The notes beneath the pieces were generated by a model that had not been told where the DNA came from, searched no databases, and was given only the letters and a program-made list of their open reading frames with translations. Source: Candidatus Poseidoniaceae archaeon (GTDB lineage: Archaea > Thermoplasmatota > Poseidoniia > Poseidoniales > Poseidoniaceae). Taken from it: a stretch of DNA of 64,000 nt. The DNA lies in assembly GCA_949372655.1 (NCBI GenBank), contig CASIAI010000009.1, forward strand, positions 1 through 64,000, written 5' to 3'. Positions 53,329 to 62,596 of the stretch are shown one piece after another. Made by a program: the position numbers and the translations under genes. Within the stretch, counting starts at the first letter, position 1; the number at the start of each line of letters is the position of its first letter.

Positions 53329-54525
53329 TCATACTAATGATTCATTACAAGCGTATTTCCTAGAGCAATTTTGACATTTACCTTTTCGTTCATGATTCCT
53401 TTTTGCTCCACCTTCTACTGTAAGACGTTGAATTTCTTGAATTGCCGAGAATAATTCTTGTTTCGTATTTTCATCCCAGTAAATTTGATGAATATCTTCG
53501 TTTCCATATCTTAGAATTCCATATGGAGTACTTCTTTTCGTACTTGTTTCCACAAGGTGTAAGTAAGCCAATAACTGCATTTTATGAGATAGATGTGGCC
53601 TCTTAGGAATTCTACCAGTTTTTTGCTCTACAGGAATAAATTCACCATCCACAACCACTATCTGGTCAGGTCTTCCTCTTAGTCCAATATTTTCATCAAT
53701 CAATAATCCTGTACTTTCCTCATCATCAGAGTATACCACTTCAGTATCTTCCTCTAATCCAACATCTTTTCTTGCAATTTCTGCTGCATTTTCGATCAAT
53801 AAGGCCCGTTGTAATTGCCAAGATGCTGCAAGGGTCCAAAGCATTGCTAGAGTAAAAAGAATAAAACCTGCCTGAGTCCTATTTTCAGCTGCTACAAGTG
53901 CTATTGAGTGAATTCCCAGTAGAATTACGGTGAATAACAAACTTATCTCAATTTTTCCAGCTTCAAACCAACCTCCTTGGAAGTCGATATTCTCCCATTC
54001 TGATTGCATGATATCATTTTGTTGAATCAAACGATTTTTCTCTTGGCGTAAGGTTTCAGATAACCCAAGCCAACCCCTCCATGGTAGATAGATGGCTAAT
54101 ATGGTTGCGAATAGTAGAATCATACTCCATAAAGCCAAGTATCTGGCTAAATCTATTGGAGAGACAATTATATCATCAATAACTACGAATGCTATTGAGT
54201 CGATAACTAGTGCGATAATAACGGTAAACCACCAAGTCCAAATCAGTAAATGTTTTTTGAATTGAATTTGCTTATCTTGAAATTCGACAACTTTTTTGTG
54301 TATTTCTGCGTGTTTCTCTTTTCCGCTATTTATTGCTTCACCTTGGCCAGAATTACCTTGTCTGGCTAAAGACCAAGACATCGGACAATAAGCGTGTCTT
54401 TCAATGTCACTGGCGCTGATTCTAAGCGGAGAGTTTTCGGCATCTCTCCAGAACCCATCTTTACACAATTTTGCGCCATAAACGCCACTTGAGCGAGACA
54501 TAACACTACTTCCCGCCCCTCCCAT
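53329..54525 (-). CDS. Cas4/RecB-family nuclease with four inserted transmembrane helices
   Basis: The 398-residue product has the Cas4-type core split by a membrane module. N-terminal: SASDIERHAYCPMSW (Cys47) and SGKEKHAEIH (His72 and His76). C-terminal: GRPDQIV (Asp287), PVEQKTG (Glu300 and Lys302), HKMQLLAYLHLVE (Gln317) and CQNCSRKYAC (Cys384, 387, 393). This is a full PD-(D/E)XK plus four-cysteine iron-sulfur set. Between the halves lie TM helices near residues 93-117, 128-148, 192-213 and 219-241, with a coiled segment between the pairs. No CRISPR array or cas1/cas2 is nearby. It may act in DNA uptake or processing at the membrane; that is inference. The start may be ATG 54501. Confidence 0.78.
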   Translation of the reverse strand: MGGAGSSVMSRSSGVYGAKLCKDGFWRDAENSPLRISASDIERHAYCPMSWSLARQGNSGQGEAINSGKEKHAEIHKKVVEFQDKQIQFKKHLLIWTWWFTVIIALVIDSIAFVVIDDIIVSPIDLARYLALWSMILLFATILAIYLPWRGWLGLSETLRQEKNRLIQQNDIMQSEWENIDFQGGWFEAGKIEISLLFTVILLGIHSIALVAAENRTQAGFILFTLAMLWTLAASWQLQRALLIENAAEIARKDVGLEEDTEVVYSDDEESTGLLIDENIGLRGRPDQIVVVDGEFIPVEQKTGRIPKRPHLSHKMQLLAYLHLVETSTKRSTPYGILRYGNEDIHQIYWDENTKQELFSAIQEIQRLTVEGGAKRNHERKGKCQNCSRKYACNESLV

Positions 54526-56958: not shown

Positions 56959-58002
56959 ATGCCGGAAGACAACCGCCATGTCCAAATGGTTTCTTTCGCA
57001 GGCTATCTGCCTGAAAAAAAGGTTGATACAACCTCATTTGCGGCCCCTAGCGATTTACCAAGGTCGTTGGATTTTATTAGACTAACAGGGATATTAGCAC
57101 ATCATGAGGTATCTGAACAGCAAGGTAGCTTTGAATTGGCAATCGAGGCTGGTAAAAAAGCAATTTCAAGAGCCGAAATCGACCCTGATTCAATCGATTT
57201 GGTAATCAATTCCTCAGTTAGTAAGATGGATAGCGAATTGAGTCAACATTTATCACCAAGTTATGCAACCTTAATTGCCAATAAACTGGGGATAAATAAT
57301 GCCCAAACATTTGATGTTTCAAATGCATGTGCTAGTATGATGACCTCTCTTATGATAGCAGAATCTAGAATCAGAAGTGGTCAAGCAGAATATGCATTAA
57401 TTGTTTCAGGAGAGCATATCACTCCTATTATCGATGAAGCAAAAAGAAGAAATCTATACCTTCACCCTAGGGCAATAGCATCGCTCACAGTTGGCGATGG
57501 TGCTGCTGCATACATTCTAGGTCCTAGCAAAGAAGAGGGTAGAATTCGATTTAGTAAGCCATTTACATTAGCACAATATAATAGACATTGTATTGGACAA
57601 GCATGTAAAAATCATCGTGGCCCACAAATGAGAACTAAGGCAAGGGATTTGCAAGATGGAGTATTGAATAATCTCGGTATTTTCTTACAGCGTGCTGTAA
57701 AAAAAATGGACCTCAAATGGGAGGAAATCGACCATACATACTCTCATCCAACAACCCCTAAAGCGGTCAAAAAGGGTGCAAAGTTAGCAACTGATATTTT
57801 TGGTGAAATTAATTTTTTACACAATGATAGTGCTGAAACGGCCAATACAGCGTCAACAACGCATGGAGTACTATTAGAAATTTCACAAAATAGAGACTAC
57901 TTGAATTCAAATGAAACGGTTTTCATGGTCTCTTTCGGTTCAGGACTTGCCATCATGGCGATGCATTTTAATCTTCCAGAGGGGGTAGAAAAATGGTCGT
58001 AA
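56959..58002 (+). CDS. KAS III-like 3-oxoacyl synthase (thiolase superfamily, OleA/FabH-type)
   Basis: This 347-residue enzyme should condense acyl thioesters through an acyl-cysteine intermediate. The triad of the FabH group is complete: Cys124 (FDVSNACASMM), His263 (YSHPTTPKA) and Asn296 (ETANTAST). The glycine-rich FGSGLAIMAM at the C terminus is also typical. It heads a tight operon: the next gene overlaps by ten bases, followed by a membrane protein, an OleD-like SDR and a CapK/PaaK-like ligase. OleA, which joins two acyl-CoAs head to head, is a plausible relative, but FabH and HMG-CoA-synthase-like enzymes share the same residues. No acyl carrier protein is encoded nearby. Confidence 0.85.
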   Translation: MPEDNRHVQMVSFAGYLPEKKVDTTSFAAPSDLPRSLDFIRLTGILAHHEVSEQQGSFELAIEAGKKAISRAEIDPDSIDLVINSSVSKMDSELSQHLSPSYATLIANKLGINNAQTFDVSNACASMMTSLMIAESRIRSGQAEYALIVSGEHITPIIDEAKRRNLYLHPRAIASLTVGDGAAAYILGPSKEEGRIRFSKPFTLAQYNRHCIGQACKNHRGPQMRTKARDLQDGVLNNLGIFLQRAVKKMDLKWEEIDHTYSHPTTPKAVKKGAKLATDIFGEINFLHNDSAETANTASTTHGVLLEISQNRDYLNSNETVFMVSFGSGLAIMAMHFNLPEGVEKWS

Positions 58003-58706
58003 TGCTTTCATGGGAGAGTAAAAAGATTGGTTATACCGGTCTTCTAAAATCAACCATAAAACTAGCTAAAAAAGCAATTAAATCTGCTAATATTAGGCTT
58101 GAAGACATCGGCCTAATAGTTCATGGCGGGGTATTTAGGGAGCACTTTAGAACAGAACCTGCTTTTGCGACTCATATTCAAGGTGGCCTTGATATTCACT
58201 GTAACGGAATCAGTTTTGATAGTCAGGCATGCTTTTCATTTGATGTAACCGATGGAAGTTGTAGCCCACATGTGGCTTTACAGTCGATTGCCGACCTGTT
58301 GCCATCATTGGAAAATAAATTCGCACTACTATGTATTGGTGATGATAGGCCTACCAAACATTGTGAATGGGATTATGAGTCTTATTGTATAGTTGCAGTA
58401 ATTGGACAATTAGGGAATGGTCCGCAATTGATTTCGGTTACTCATGATAGTTCTAAGTTGAATATTGACTCAACAATTACGGGATATTTCGATGAAAACA
58501 TAAAAGCCAATCGATTTACTAAATCTGGAGCAGTAGAATCTCAACAAACCAACTCGAGTAAAAACTATTTCTCAGGCGGCCAAAGATGGTTATCAGGCAA
58601 GCATATGCACGAATTTTTAGAAAGAATAAATGGACAGAATCATACACTTGAACATTGTATAGTAGACCGGTCAGGTAAGTCTACAACAGCCAAGTGGGAG
58701 TTTTGA
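57993..58706 (+). CDS. Short thiolase-fold (KS-like) partner protein
   Basis: This 237-residue protein resembles the N-terminal half of a KAS III enzyme: a helix (LLKSTIKLAKKAIKSANI), LIVHGG, then FSFDVTDGSCSPHVALQSIADLL, where the nucleophile loop FDVSNACAS is expected. The Cys is shifted one position by an extra residue, so it may not be catalytic. No clear His and Asn blocks follow, though KHMHEFLERI and LEHCIVDRSG exist. It overlaps the KAS III gene by ten bases with GGGGG upstream, so equal production of the two is likely. It may pair with that enzyme as a non-catalytic subunit, like chain-length factors. That role is inference. Confidence 0.65.
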   Translation: MVVMLSWESKKIGYTGLLKSTIKLAKKAIKSANIRLEDIGLIVHGGVFREHFRTEPAFATHIQGGLDIHCNGISFDSQACFSFDVTDGSCSPHVALQSIADLLPSLENKFALLCIGDDRPTKHCEWDYESYCIVAVIGQLGNGPQLISVTHDSSKLNIDSTITGYFDENIKANRFTKSGAVESQQTNSSKNYFSGGQRWLSGKHMHEFLERINGQNHTLEHCIVDRSGKSTTAKWEF

Positions 58707-58708
58707 AA

Positions 58709-60331
58709 ATGAAATTTCAAAGAAGTAAAGAAGATAATTTTCTATTACTTTTTCTAGTTGTATTATGCCTTTATCACATCATAGCAAGATTTGGTTTAGC
58801 AGTAGACTTACAATGGCATACAGATGTTGGAAGAGATAAACTATTCACTCCGCCACATATCATGATTCTTGCGGGGATAATTCCAACTAGTCTCATGCTT
58901 TCATCCTACATCTTTTGGTATAGTTTTATTTCAAAACAAGACCGAAAGGGGGGATTCTATATCGGTCCATTTATTGCACCTACAAGCCTTTGGATGATGG
59001 TTTGTGGTTTGATTACTCTTGTACTTGGAGGTCTATATGACGATTTTTGGCATACCAGTTATGGCATTGATACAACAATAATAACGCCTCCACATGTTTG
59101 GACTTTTGCCGGCGGAATGCTAGTGGAAGTAGCAACTATTGCTTTAGCATTACAAATGAAAAACAGACTGAAAGAGAATTGCCCGAAATGGTTAAATTTA
59201 ATCATTCTAGGAACTTTATGGGCCTTAGTATACCATTTCCATTTGGCTTTTGCTAATTTCTTAGACCCTCGTGTTTGGTCGTTTGAGATTCTAAATATCA
59301 ACATAATTTTACACTTCATTTTTGCCGGTGCTACTTTGATGATTTTTCTTCCATTGGCTGATAGATGGCTGGGCAAGAATGGAGCGATTTCGTTGTCAGG
59401 TTTGTTGCTTGGTTCACAATTATTATTCTTAATTTTAGTACCATTCTTAGTTTCTACATTTATGACTAGTGAGCATTTTTTCCGACCAGGCTCACCACAT
59501 ACAACTTGGGCTGCACACTGTCTTCCATGGCTATTGTTGCCTGGATTAATTTTTGTCAAAAAGTTCTCATCACTTGAAAACCCTAATTCTATGATCGCAT
59601 TGGTTATTCTTGCAGATGTTGTTTGGTTACCAACATTCATCGATTACATTCCACAAGAGGTTGGAATTTTTGACACATTGGTTTCTGTTGTTTTCAGCGT
59701 AGTAATCCTTAGAGTATTTTGGCAATTATCTCTAGGTTTTGGGGCGTCAGTTGAGAGATTATCTTTGGATAAACAAATCAGTTTATCTAAATCAAAAAGT
59801 AAAAATTCCAAATTATCAGTTCTCAGTATTGTAATGATGATTCTATTCCTGCCTGTTGTTAGCGGACACACAATTCATTTCTCTGAAGAAGGAGAAGGCT
59901 TTGATGCACCTAAGCGTTATCTAATCGATATCGATGATAAATATGTCTGGGTTGAATTCATGATGTGGCCTCCTAAAGCAATTACAGATATTGAAGTTAT
60001 AGTTCTGCCAGCAGAAAATGAAACAGCAGTTATCGATGAGGTTTGGATTGAGGTAGTATATCCAAATGAAAATGGAGAGGTTAGAATGAGGACAGATATG
60101 GAGAATAGAAATGATATTTCAATTTGGAGTGGACAGTTAAATTTCCCGTTTTCAGGTAACCAATCACTAGAAATTTGGCTTGAAGTAGATGGAGAAACGA
60201 ATTTCACAACTATTCCAGTAGAGGTTGAGGGGCCGCCGGTTTTACCGGTTTGGTTGGCTTGGTTGTTAGCGATTTCTTGGCCTGCACTTATGGTTTTAAT
60301 TTGGAGAAACATTTCGCATAAGATGTCTTAG
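58709..60331 (+). CDS. Polytopic membrane protein with duplicated D-x2-W-H...TPPH motif
   Basis: This 540-residue protein has about nine to ten TM helices, then an outward domain of about 130 residues and a last TM helix. Two segments align: VDLQWHTDVGRDKLFTPPH (about residues 35-53) and YDDFWHTSYGIDTTIITPPH (about residues 115-134). Both have D-x2-W-H-T-x2-G-x-D-x3/4-T-P-P-H at the end of a loop before a helix. A third loop reads RPGSPHTTWAAH. Such His and Asp pairs can bind metal in membrane oxidoreductases. I do not know the family. After the hydrophobic core, SGHTIHFSEEGEGF begins a beta domain. I start at ATG 58709, with GGGAG eight bases upstream. It lies between the KS-like and SDR genes, so a lipid-modifying role is possible. 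Confidence 0.65.
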   Translation: MKFQRSKEDNFLLLFLVVLCLYHIIARFGLAVDLQWHTDVGRDKLFTPPHIMILAGIIPTSLMLSSYIFWYSFISKQDRKGGFYIGPFIAPTSLWMMVCGLITLVLGGLYDDFWHTSYGIDTTIITPPHVWTFAGGMLVEVATIALALQMKNRLKENCPKWLNLIILGTLWALVYHFHLAFANFLDPRVWSFEILNINIILHFIFAGATLMIFLPLADRWLGKNGAISLSGLLLGSQLLFLILVPFLVSTFMTSEHFFRPGSPHTTWAAHCLPWLLLPGLIFVKKFSSLENPNSMIALVILADVVWLPTFIDYIPQEVGIFDTLVSVVFSVVILRVFWQLSLGFGASVERLSLDKQISLSKSKSKNSKLSVLSIVMMILFLPVVSGHTIHFSEEGEGFDAPKRYLIDIDDKYVWVEFMMWPPKAITDIEVIVLPAENETAVIDEVWIEVVYPNENGEVRMRTDMENRNDISIWSGQLNFPFSGNQSLEIWLEVDGETNFTTIPVEVEGPPVLPVWLAWLLAISWPALMVLIWRNISHKMS

Positions 60332-60341
60332 GGGTGAAGTG

Positions 60342-61310
60342 ATGAGAATTGTTGTTACAGGAGCTACCGGTTCTTTGGGTACGGCACTTATGTATCGATT
60401 AAGAGACCAGAATCACTCCTTACTTGGACTTGGACTTTCTGAGGCGAAACTCAAATCCTTATCAGATGAAGGATTTGAAATGAAACGTTGCGATATTGGA
60501 GACTTAGTAACATTAACCGAATGCGTGGCAGATTGCGATGTAGTGATTCATTGTGCAGCATTTGCTGCCCCATTTGGTAATAAGAAAAGATTCTTTCAAA
60601 CCAATGTACAAGGTACAAAGAATGTATTTGAGGCTGTAAAAAATTCGAGTGTATCAAGGGTAATTGCGATATCTTCTGCCTCAATCTTTGATGGTATGAA
60701 ACATGATTTACCTCACCGTGATGATACTCCAGAACTCAAATTTAGGCCAAAACATCACTATGGTGCAAGTAAATATGATGCTGAATTAGTATGTTTAAGC
60801 CAACCTAGAGGTAAATGGGTAGGATTACGCCCACGCGCAGTATTTGGCAAGGGTGACCAAACTCTAATTCCAAGATTAAAGAGACTTATCGGTAAGTCTC
60901 ATTACAAGACAATCGGTAAGGGCGAGAATCTTATTGATGTTACTTGTTTATCCAATTTCATCGATGCTGTATGTTTAGCAATCAAAGCACCAAAAGATAG
61001 TCTTGGTAAATTTTACAATATCTCAAATGGTGATGCAAGAACATTTAATTCGATAATGCAAACCTATACTTCCAAATATTCATCTTCATTTAAGCAGAGA
61101 AAAATACCGTACTATCCAGTATTTTTATTGGCTAGTTTCAACAATTTGATCGCTAATTTAGTACCAGGCAAAAAATGGGAGCCTAGAATTACTCCATATG
61201 GATTAAGGCAGGTCACAACATCTCTAGTCTTGGATATTTCAGGGGCTAAAGATGGATTAGGTTGGATTCCTAAAAAGACCTTTGAACAAGGTATGGAGGA
61301 ATTGGAGTGA
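60342..61310 (+). CDS. Extended SDR, 3-beta-HSD/OleD-like NAD(P)-dependent reductase
   Basis: This 322-residue extended short-chain dehydrogenase has the Rossmann motif VVTGATGSLG (G7, G10, G13) and the active-site pair YGASK (Tyr near 140, Lys near 144). The segments RPRAVFGKGDQTLIPRL, GKGENLIDVTCLSNFIDA and FYNISNGDART match the 3-beta-hydroxysteroid dehydrogenase-like group that includes OleD, which reduces 2-alkyl-3-ketoacyl products of OleA. Other sterol or isoprenoid epimerases share these segments. GGGGTGA precedes the ATG; its stop overlaps the ligase start as GTGA. Gene order after a KAS III enzyme supports an OleD-like step. Confidence 0.85.
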   Translation: MRIVVTGATGSLGTALMYRLRDQNHSLLGLGLSEAKLKSLSDEGFEMKRCDIGDLVTLTECVADCDVVIHCAAFAAPFGNKKRFFQTNVQGTKNVFEAVKNSSVSRVIAISSASIFDGMKHDLPHRDDTPELKFRPKHHYGASKYDAELVCLSQPRGKWVGLRPRAVFGKGDQTLIPRLKRLIGKSHYKTIGKGENLIDVTCLSNFIDAVCLAIKAPKDSLGKFYNISNGDARTFNSIMQTYTSKYSSSFKQRKIPYYPVFLLASFNNLIANLVPGKKWEPRITPYGLRQVTTSLVLDISGAKDGLGWIPKKTFEQGMEELE

Positions 61311-62596
61311 GTAAATTAAGCACATTATTACGCTATTTCTTTACTCCTAAGAAATTTAAATCTCGTAAACAAATAGAACGAATACAAAGCCAAGGAATGA
61401 GGAAGCAAGCCAAATTTGTTCGTAAAAACTCACCATTCTATGCACGTCATTGGGAGGGTATGCAAGACGAGCAATGGCACGATTTTCCATTGATAGATAA
61501 GTCGATAATGATGGAAAATCTTGAGGATTTATTGACGGTCAGAATAGATGTTAGCAAAGCGAACTCATTGGCAGATGAGGCGGAAAAGTCTCGTGATTTC
61601 TCTCCAAAAATAGGCCCTTATTCGATAGGCTACTCTTCAGGTACTAGTGGCTCAAGAGGTATGCATTTTATTAGTGAAAAAGAGCAAGCAGGTTGGGCAG
61701 GATTTATGCTATCTAGAGGATTAGACGGGTCAATATTTTCAAAGCATAGAATTGGTTTAATTTTAAGAGCGAATTCGAATACTTTCGAGTCTGTAGGTTC
61801 TAACAGAATAGAATTCAAGTTCTATGACCTCATGAAACCTTTAGAAGAAATTCATGAGTCTATTTTACAAGATAAATTAGATATTCTAATTGGCCCTCCG
61901 AGCGTTCTTAGATATTTAGCAGATGTGAAATCTCCTCTGAAAGTTCGAAAACTTGTTTCTGCTGCTGAAGTATTAGATGAGATAGACAGAACGCATATTG
62001 AGGCGCATTTTGGTCAAATTGTTCACCAGTTTTATTCATCTACTGAAGGAGAAATTGCCGCTACTTGTGAGCATGGAACATTACACTTGAATGAAGAAAT
62101 AATGGTTATTCAGAAGCAATGGGTTGATGAGGAAAAAGGCTGGTATCATCCAATAATTTCAGATTTCAAGAGAAAAACACAGCCTATCATTAGGTATAGG
62201 TTGAACGATATTTTGGTTGCTTCAAAGCAACCATGCAAGTGTGGTGATGCACGAGAATCCATTGAATCAATTATGGGAAGACAAGATGATATTTTTCTGC
62301 TTGAAAGGAAATCAGGAGATGGCTTTGAGCAAGTAATTCCAGATTTTATTAGACGAGCAGTAATGCAAATGCATCCCGATATAACCGCCTATTGTGCAAT
62401 TCAAAAGTCACCAGAAGAGATTGAGATACAACTTCTCCCAGAGGGGCTTCAAGAAATTTCCTTCCAAGGATTTGAACAAGTTTGGAAAAATATGAAAACG
62501 ATTCAACCGACGATTTCTTTGGCTAAATATTCATTCAAGCCCTCGACTAAGAAACTTAGAAGAATCCGAAGAGATTTTGAATTACCATTCAAATAG
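61307..62596 (+). CDS. CapK/PaaK-like adenylate-forming ligase
   Basis: This is a 429-residue acyl-adenylating enzyme, expected to activate a carboxylate with ATP, probably to a thioester. It has the adenylation P-loop YSSGTSGSRGMHFI (near residue 108), the acid-containing VHQFYSSTEGEIAATCEHG, and IIRYRLNDILVA with its Asp. A cysteine set (PCKCGD) lies shortly before the C-terminal domain GRQDDIFLL. This matches the phenylacetate-CoA ligase and F390-synthetase-related group rather than OleC. It starts at GTG 61307 inside the stop of the SDR gene. It ends the operon; the M28 gene follows after 52 bases. Confidence 0.83.
   Translation: MSKLSTLLRYFFTPKKFKSRKQIERIQSQGMRKQAKFVRKNSPFYARHWEGMQDEQWHDFPLIDKSIMMENLEDLLTVRIDVSKANSLADEAEKSRDFSPKIGPYSIGYSSGTSGSRGMHFISEKEQAGWAGFMLSRGLDGSIFSKHRIGLILRANSNTFESVGSNRIEFKFYDLMKPLEEIHESILQDKLDILIGPPSVLRYLADVKSPLKVRKLVSAAEVLDEIDRTHIEAHFGQIVHQFYSSTEGEIAATCEHGTLHLNEEIMVIQKQWVDEEKGWYHPIISDFKRKTQPIIRYRLNDILVASKQPCKCGDARESIESIMGRQDDIFLLERKSGDGFEQVIPDFIRRAVMQMHPDITAYCAIQKSPEEIEIQLLPEGLQEISFQGFEQVWKNMKTIQPTISLAKYSFKPSTKKLRRIRRDFELPFK

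Follow-up and report, generated by a model that had tools for sequence, protein, structure and literature searches.

An operon of five genes in a Marine Group II archaeon joins putative enzymes of acyl condensation to a polytopic membrane protein, encoded by gene C, which we file as a remote homologue of subunit C of the copper membrane monooxygenases (CuMMO) and not as a member of that family. This relationship of C to PmoC/AmoC is the main new result of the analysis, and the combination of acyl-condensation genes with a PmoC/AmoC-related membrane protein in one operon was found nowhere else. We classify the operon as a variant of the OleA/LstAB acyl-condensation kind, and give a probability of roughly 0.5 to the reading in which it makes a head-to-head condensed long-chain lipid, with C as a membrane copper protein that most likely oxidises the product. 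The identities of the genes, the conservation of their residues, their linkage and both copper-site motifs were read directly from the sequences (Table 1). The window, that is, the whole stretch of 64,000 nucleotides that was analysed, lies on contig C9 of a genome that is approximately 75% complete and whose relatives are Poseidoniales (Marine Group II).

Table 1. Positions in the window of the five genes of the operon and of the features within gene C.
Feature	Position	Strand	Remark
Gene A, LstA-type KAS III condensing subunit	56959..58002	+	347 aa
Gene B, LstB-like truncated KAS III partner	57993..58706	+	237 aa
Gene C, PmoC/AmoC-like polytopic membrane protein with C-terminal copper-type beta domain	58694..60331	+	545 aa
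CuC-like site in C, D38-x3-H42-x4-R47-x7-H55	58805..58858	+	invariant, spacing as in PmoC
CuD-like site in C, D116-x3-H120-x13-H134	59039..59095	+	invariant, spacing as in PmoC
Signal-peptide-like internal segment of C, ending (V/A)-x-(G/A) before invariant His392	59789..59866	+	
Extracytoplasmic beta domain of C, CrdA/FixH/YtkA-like, from His392	59867..60244	+	Foldseek
Gene D, OleD/LstD-like NAD(P)-dependent reductase, extended SDR family	60339..61310	+	323 aa
Gene E, TIGR02304 'F390 synthetase-related' PaaK-type adenylate-forming ligase	61307..62596	+	429 aa

As the first-pass annotation had it, the five ORFs (56959-62596) lie on one strand and are tightly spaced. Their overlaps or gaps are of fewer than 14 bases. 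A and B overlap by 10 nt, B and C by 13 nt (or are separated by 2 nt if C begins at an alternative start, the ATG at 58709), C and D are 7 nt apart, and D and E overlap by 4 nt. When comparing the window to its nearest sampled relative, changes at third codon positions (0.33-0.46) exceeded those at second positions (0.02-0.11) in all five ORFs; this excess is far beyond chance and indicates that A to E are real genes under purifying selection.

A close homologue of A was present in 27 of the 293 genomes of the class, all belonging to one family and three genera. The order A-B-C-D-E, for which a search in relatives had been proposed at first pass, is conserved in Poseidoniales and is kept in at least two genomic settings, one beside rpsB and a TauE-like gene; other relatives have different surroundings. 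A scan of approximately 85,000 species genomes with a profile of C returned 28 loci, and every one came from a record titled Poseidoniales, Poseidoniaceae or Euryarchaeota. Wherever the contig was long enough, A and B stood directly upstream of C at these loci, and D-E stood downstream except in two genomes (L086 and L087), which keep A-B-C without an adjacent D-E and carry another membrane gene in their place. Outside the class, a phylum-wide search of 390 genomes gave three distant partial matches, and in two of these (L123 and L124) a C-like protein occurs without the operon. For Thermoplasmata from soils, full CuMMO operons are on record, in a text with no mention of Marine Group II or Poseidoniales (PMC9038741), and literature searches of an open-access library gave no report of a PmoC-like protein or of an ole/lst operon in Marine Group II.

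Two other genes of these genomes can be recorded here. Gene F encodes a membrane protein of 255 aa (family members at L084:12897-13700, L086:6560-7339 and L128:5902-6540) and in a few genomes comes after C or E; the window's own genome has a copy away from the operon, near a gene for an SCO1-like copper chaperone, and no function was found for F. At 53329-54525 of the window, a Cas4/PD-(D/E)XK-type nuclease domain is fused to transmembrane helices, and relatives keep this gene beside rpsB.

A carries KAS III domains, yet scores below the curated cut-offs for FabH (129 and 113 bits, with cut-offs of 249 and 292), for the OleA-type NCBIfam model PRK09258 (116 bits, with a cut-off of 285) and for HMG-CoA synthase (HMGS; at most 50 bits). 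In a KAS III tree that contains no OleA sequence, A lies on the LstA side of a branch with 100/100 support, FabH and the KAS III of an E. coli-type cassette being placed opposite, and the Marine Group II clade is supported at 89/94. FabH and HMGS, named as competing identities in the first-pass annotation, were thus ruled out, the former by the tree and the scores and the latter by the scores. The closest annotated plasmid relatives of A come from Rhodococcus and Streptomyces, where an LstB-like gene follows, and several plasmid relatives sit in lipstatin-like clusters with a ligase, a reductase, an NRPS and a formyltransferase. An LstA/LstB-type pair of Rhodococcus WAY2 (L058:7428-12445) stands, unlike in lipstatin clusters, between two wax ester/triacylglycerol synthase genes.

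The activity of lipstatin synthase requires C128 and H271 of LstA and E60 of LstB, and N305 of LstA is also among the residues needed for an active LstAB complex (PMC12141560). The three LstA residues have their equivalents in Cys124, His263 and Asn296 of A, a triad that is invariant in 17 sequences. The position of OleA Glu117 is occupied by Ser99 in A of the window genus and by Glu or Asp in deeper branches, so that the glutamate seems to be left to B. Searches of sequence families with B gave weak KAS III matches only, and its fold is that of a KAS III (AlphaFold, pLDDT 85, and Foldseek). Glu55 of B (codon 58155-58157) is invariant, aligns with the Glu found at positions 57-60 of LstB-like proteins and corresponds to LstB Glu60; Cys80 varies, and B lacks the C-terminal catalytic part (His/Asn). 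A and B would form an LstA/LstB-type KAS III heterodimer, in which B plausibly supplies the catalytic Glu. A homodimeric OleA was ruled out as the identity of A by the absence of Glu117 from A of the window and by the partner that is always present.

The top NCBIfam model for D was OleD, at 150 bits and under its cut-off of 580, a cut-off against which a reductase from an lst-like cluster scored 209 bits; the sugar-epimerase model HpnA gave 78 bits, about half the OleD value. In BLAST comparisons, LstD was less close to D than were the SDRs of a bacterial KAS III-SDR-MBL-ligase cassette. E scores above the cut-off of TIGR02304 (400.8 bits versus 251.9) and is closest to the ligase of the same cassette, being 40% identical to the one from Pontibacillus. 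With a condensing pair of LstAB type, and D and E nearest to the reductase and ligase of another cassette, the operon reads as a mosaic. The cassette core (KAS III, OleD-like SDR, MBL hydrolase and F390-type ligase) is carried by a plasmid of E. coli KE48 (L062:4200-11081), together with genes for a PAP2 phosphatase, a sterol desaturase-like protein and an acyl-CoA desaturase; the four-gene core was present in 674 of 5426 complete E. coli genomes, with a chromosomal location in nearly all of them, and it occurs as well in Pontibacillus, Paracoccus and a marine Pseudomonas.

These assignments of A, B, D and E bear out the first-pass annotation in part, namely as to acyl condensation of OleA/OleD-like logic, a KS-like protein beside the KAS III, a ligase from a different family where OleC would stand, and no OleB, none being present in the operon. 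Its likeness of A to OleA stands as far as the related logic is concerned, but the closest system is the LstA/LstB heterodimer and not the homodimeric OleA.

The relationship of C to PmoC/AmoC is remote. C of the window gave no Pfam hit, and the Pfam AmoC threshold was not reached, with 1 of 14 relatives matching at an E-value of 0.0017. A search of plasmid proteins returned, all weakly, subunit C of methane/ammonia monooxygenases and uncharacterised actinobacterial and Deinococcus proteins, and in a PDB-wide search with a profile of 14 C sequences the sole matches were ammonia monooxygenase subunit C, with E-values of 0.002 and 0.003. When C was aligned to Rhodococcus BmoC with hhalign, 96 columns spanning both sites were matched with a P-value of 8.5e-7, as compared to 0.017 for the best of 60 block shuffles and 0.36 for the reversed sequence; none of five unrelated membrane proteins did better than 0.05.

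In PmoC, CuC is formed by D156, H160 and H173 and CuD by N227, H231 and H245, with R165 in the second shell (PMC12576850). C carries the Asp-His-His ligands of CuC at the PmoC spacing, with R47 matching R165, and at CuD both His and the spacing are kept while Asn is replaced by Asp116; all of these residues (D38, H42, R47, H55; D116, H120, H134) are invariant in 20 sequences. A census of the paired motifs in 2422 ORFs returned only C homologues, BmoC and related actinobacterial or Thermoplasmatota proteins, and a chance origin of the motifs was ruled out by this census, the shuffles and the unrelated membrane proteins. Judged from these residues, C would bind copper and may be catalytic. The 'metal-motif membrane protein' of the first-pass annotation was right as to the metal motifs, but missed the PmoC/AmoC-like copper identity and the CrdA-like domain. 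PmoA and PmoB were not detected in 40 genomes, in searches in which no positive control fired and with the window's own genome only partly complete. Uncharacterised PmoC-like proteins are also encoded on Streptomyces and Deinococcus plasmids (L066:6941-8374, L069:4968-6395, L070:4893-5927); those of Streptomyces have a C-terminal copper-type domain that begins at a His, with copper genes nearby.

The model of C consists of a helical bundle and a C-terminal beta domain (pLDDT 80, pTM 0.81). The beta domain matches the copper-resistance protein CrdA of H. pylori (Foldseek E-value 2e-4, TM 0.71); whole-chain Foldseek searches of the PDB and of viral models returned this domain and noise only, and PmoC was absent among the 50 best structural matches. 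The stretch that precedes the beta domain is of charged-hydrophobic type, and the Streptomyces relatives display A-x-A followed by His at the same place. In another member of the Thermoplasmatota (L123:2637-4249), the PmoC-like and beta halves are two adjacent genes, the second with its own signal peptide. PmoB has an N-terminal histidine, and by analogy the beta domain of C may be released with an N-terminal His.

From these comparisons we infer the substrates, the order of the steps and the product. In the A-B heterodimer, one acyl chain would be held on Cys124 of A, and Glu55 of B would act as the base that activates a second acyl-CoA for a non-decarboxylative Claisen condensation, yielding a 2-alkyl-3-oxo acid. 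D would reduce the 3-oxo group to a 3-hydroxy group, and E, in the role of OleC/LstC, would adenylate the carboxylate, leading to a beta-lactone, a CoA ester, or another ester or amide. C, which appears to share an ancestor with CuMMO subunit C, would most likely oxidise the chain or the head of the product with O2, at sites predicted to lie at the outer membrane face, beside the CrdA-like copper domain. The condensation step has close parallels in LstAB, whereas reduction and activation are suggested by family resemblance, and oxidation, as the most likely role of C, by homology of the sites. No evidence was found for the isoprenoid-linked product suggested at first pass.

Several observations count against this reading, namely the unreached AmoC threshold, the absence of PmoC from the Foldseek matches, the undetected PmoA and PmoB and the copper context of the Streptomyces genes, as well as the absence here of the MBL hydrolase of the cassette and the two genomes without an adjacent D-E. 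Standalone C-like genes of Streptomyces lie near a cupredoxin, a copper P-type ATPase and a multicopper oxidase, and for this reason copper handling is the main rival explanation for C: A-B-D-E would make the lipid, and C would import, store, sense or insert copper, sharing with PmoC only the copper-binding scaffold. We regard this as possible but rather doubtful. It would agree with the CrdA-like C-terminal domain, and with the failure to detect PmoA and PmoB to the extent that a search without a positive control allows; it leaves unexplained, however, the position of C inside a lipid operon, and only with A-B in the 28 loci. It is also opposed by the preserved pairing of the CuC and CuD geometries and by the second-shell Arg, CuD having been argued to be the active site of pMMO (PMC12576850). 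A more specific form of the oxidation reading, in which C founds a single-chain, lipid-acting branch of the CuMMO superfamily, unites in one polypeptide the PmoC-type site and a copper domain that begins with His after an internal signal cleavage, and oxidises the head-to-head condensed lipid of A-B-D-E in Marine Group II, is put forward tentatively.

It is improbable that A and B act in the manner of PqsB-PqsC and make, by a decarboxylative condensation or a hetero-condensation, an alkylquinolone-, pyrone- or signal-type molecule. One of the two subunits of the PqsBC heterodimer is likewise inactive, PqsC was the second-best PDB match of A, and PqsBC was among the structural matches of B. Nevertheless, the LstB/OleA glutamate is kept in all members of B, A branches with LstA-type proteins, and D and E correspond to the OleD-like reduction and the ligase step that would be expected to follow OleA/LstAB. 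We find it very unlikely that A to E serve to make or modify a lipid of the envelope, for example a glycolipid carrying acyl or hydroxy-acyl groups, with E being CoA ligase-like and D acting on a sugar: D does match sugar-epimerase models such as HpnA, but with a clearly lower score than OleD, and although CapK-like ligases are known from envelope clusters, no glycosyltransferase conserved with the operon was found among the neighbourhood genes compared.

Marine Group II archaea are counted among the most abundant cells of the surface ocean that have not been cultured, and head-to-head acyl condensation is, to our knowledge, not a known trait of archaea. If condensation to a long-chain lipid followed by oxidation by C is correct, these organisms produce a long-chain lipid or beta-lactone that has gone unrecognised, and lipid extracts of seawater could be searched for it. 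Through the link to PmoC, the copper membrane monooxygenase superfamily would then no longer be limited to the methane and ammonia enzymes with their three subunits, and one could test directly whether a PmoC-type site works in the absence of PmoA and PmoB, a question that touches the long dispute over the active site.

When compared to lst and related beta-lactone clusters, the operon displays the same adjacent LstA- and then LstB-type genes, the same distribution of catalytic residues over two subunits and, further downstream, a reductase resembling OleD and an enzyme that activates acids with ATP. It differs in the length of B (237 aa versus about 290-300 in LstB), in a ligase that belongs to TIGR02304 and not to the LstC/OleC-type AMP-binding enzymes, and in having a PmoC-like protein and neither NRPS nor formyltransferase. 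With OleABCD it shares OleA-type thiolase logic, an OleD-like reductase and an ATP-using ligase, but a heterodimer takes the place of the OleA homodimer, an OleC-family enzyme and OleB are absent, and a putative membrane copper protein is added. The bacterial cassette (E. coli, Pontibacillus, Paracoccus, Pseudomonas) has the SDR and ligase closest to D and E, whereas its KAS III groups with FabH, it has an MBL hydrolase, and it has no B partner and no C. With regard to CuMMO (pMMO/AMO/BMO), C differs from subunit C by the Asp in place of Asn at CuD, by falling below the AmoC threshold of Pfam, and by combining in one chain of 545 aa extra helices and the CrdA-like domain, with subunits A and B undetected; it shares the CuC ligands, both His of CuD, the exact spacing of the two sites and the second-shell Arg, all placed on two pairs of helices, and has an extracytoplasmic copper domain nearby. 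The fold of this beta domain is that of CrdA, FixH and YtkA, and in C it is tethered to a PmoC-like membrane domain.
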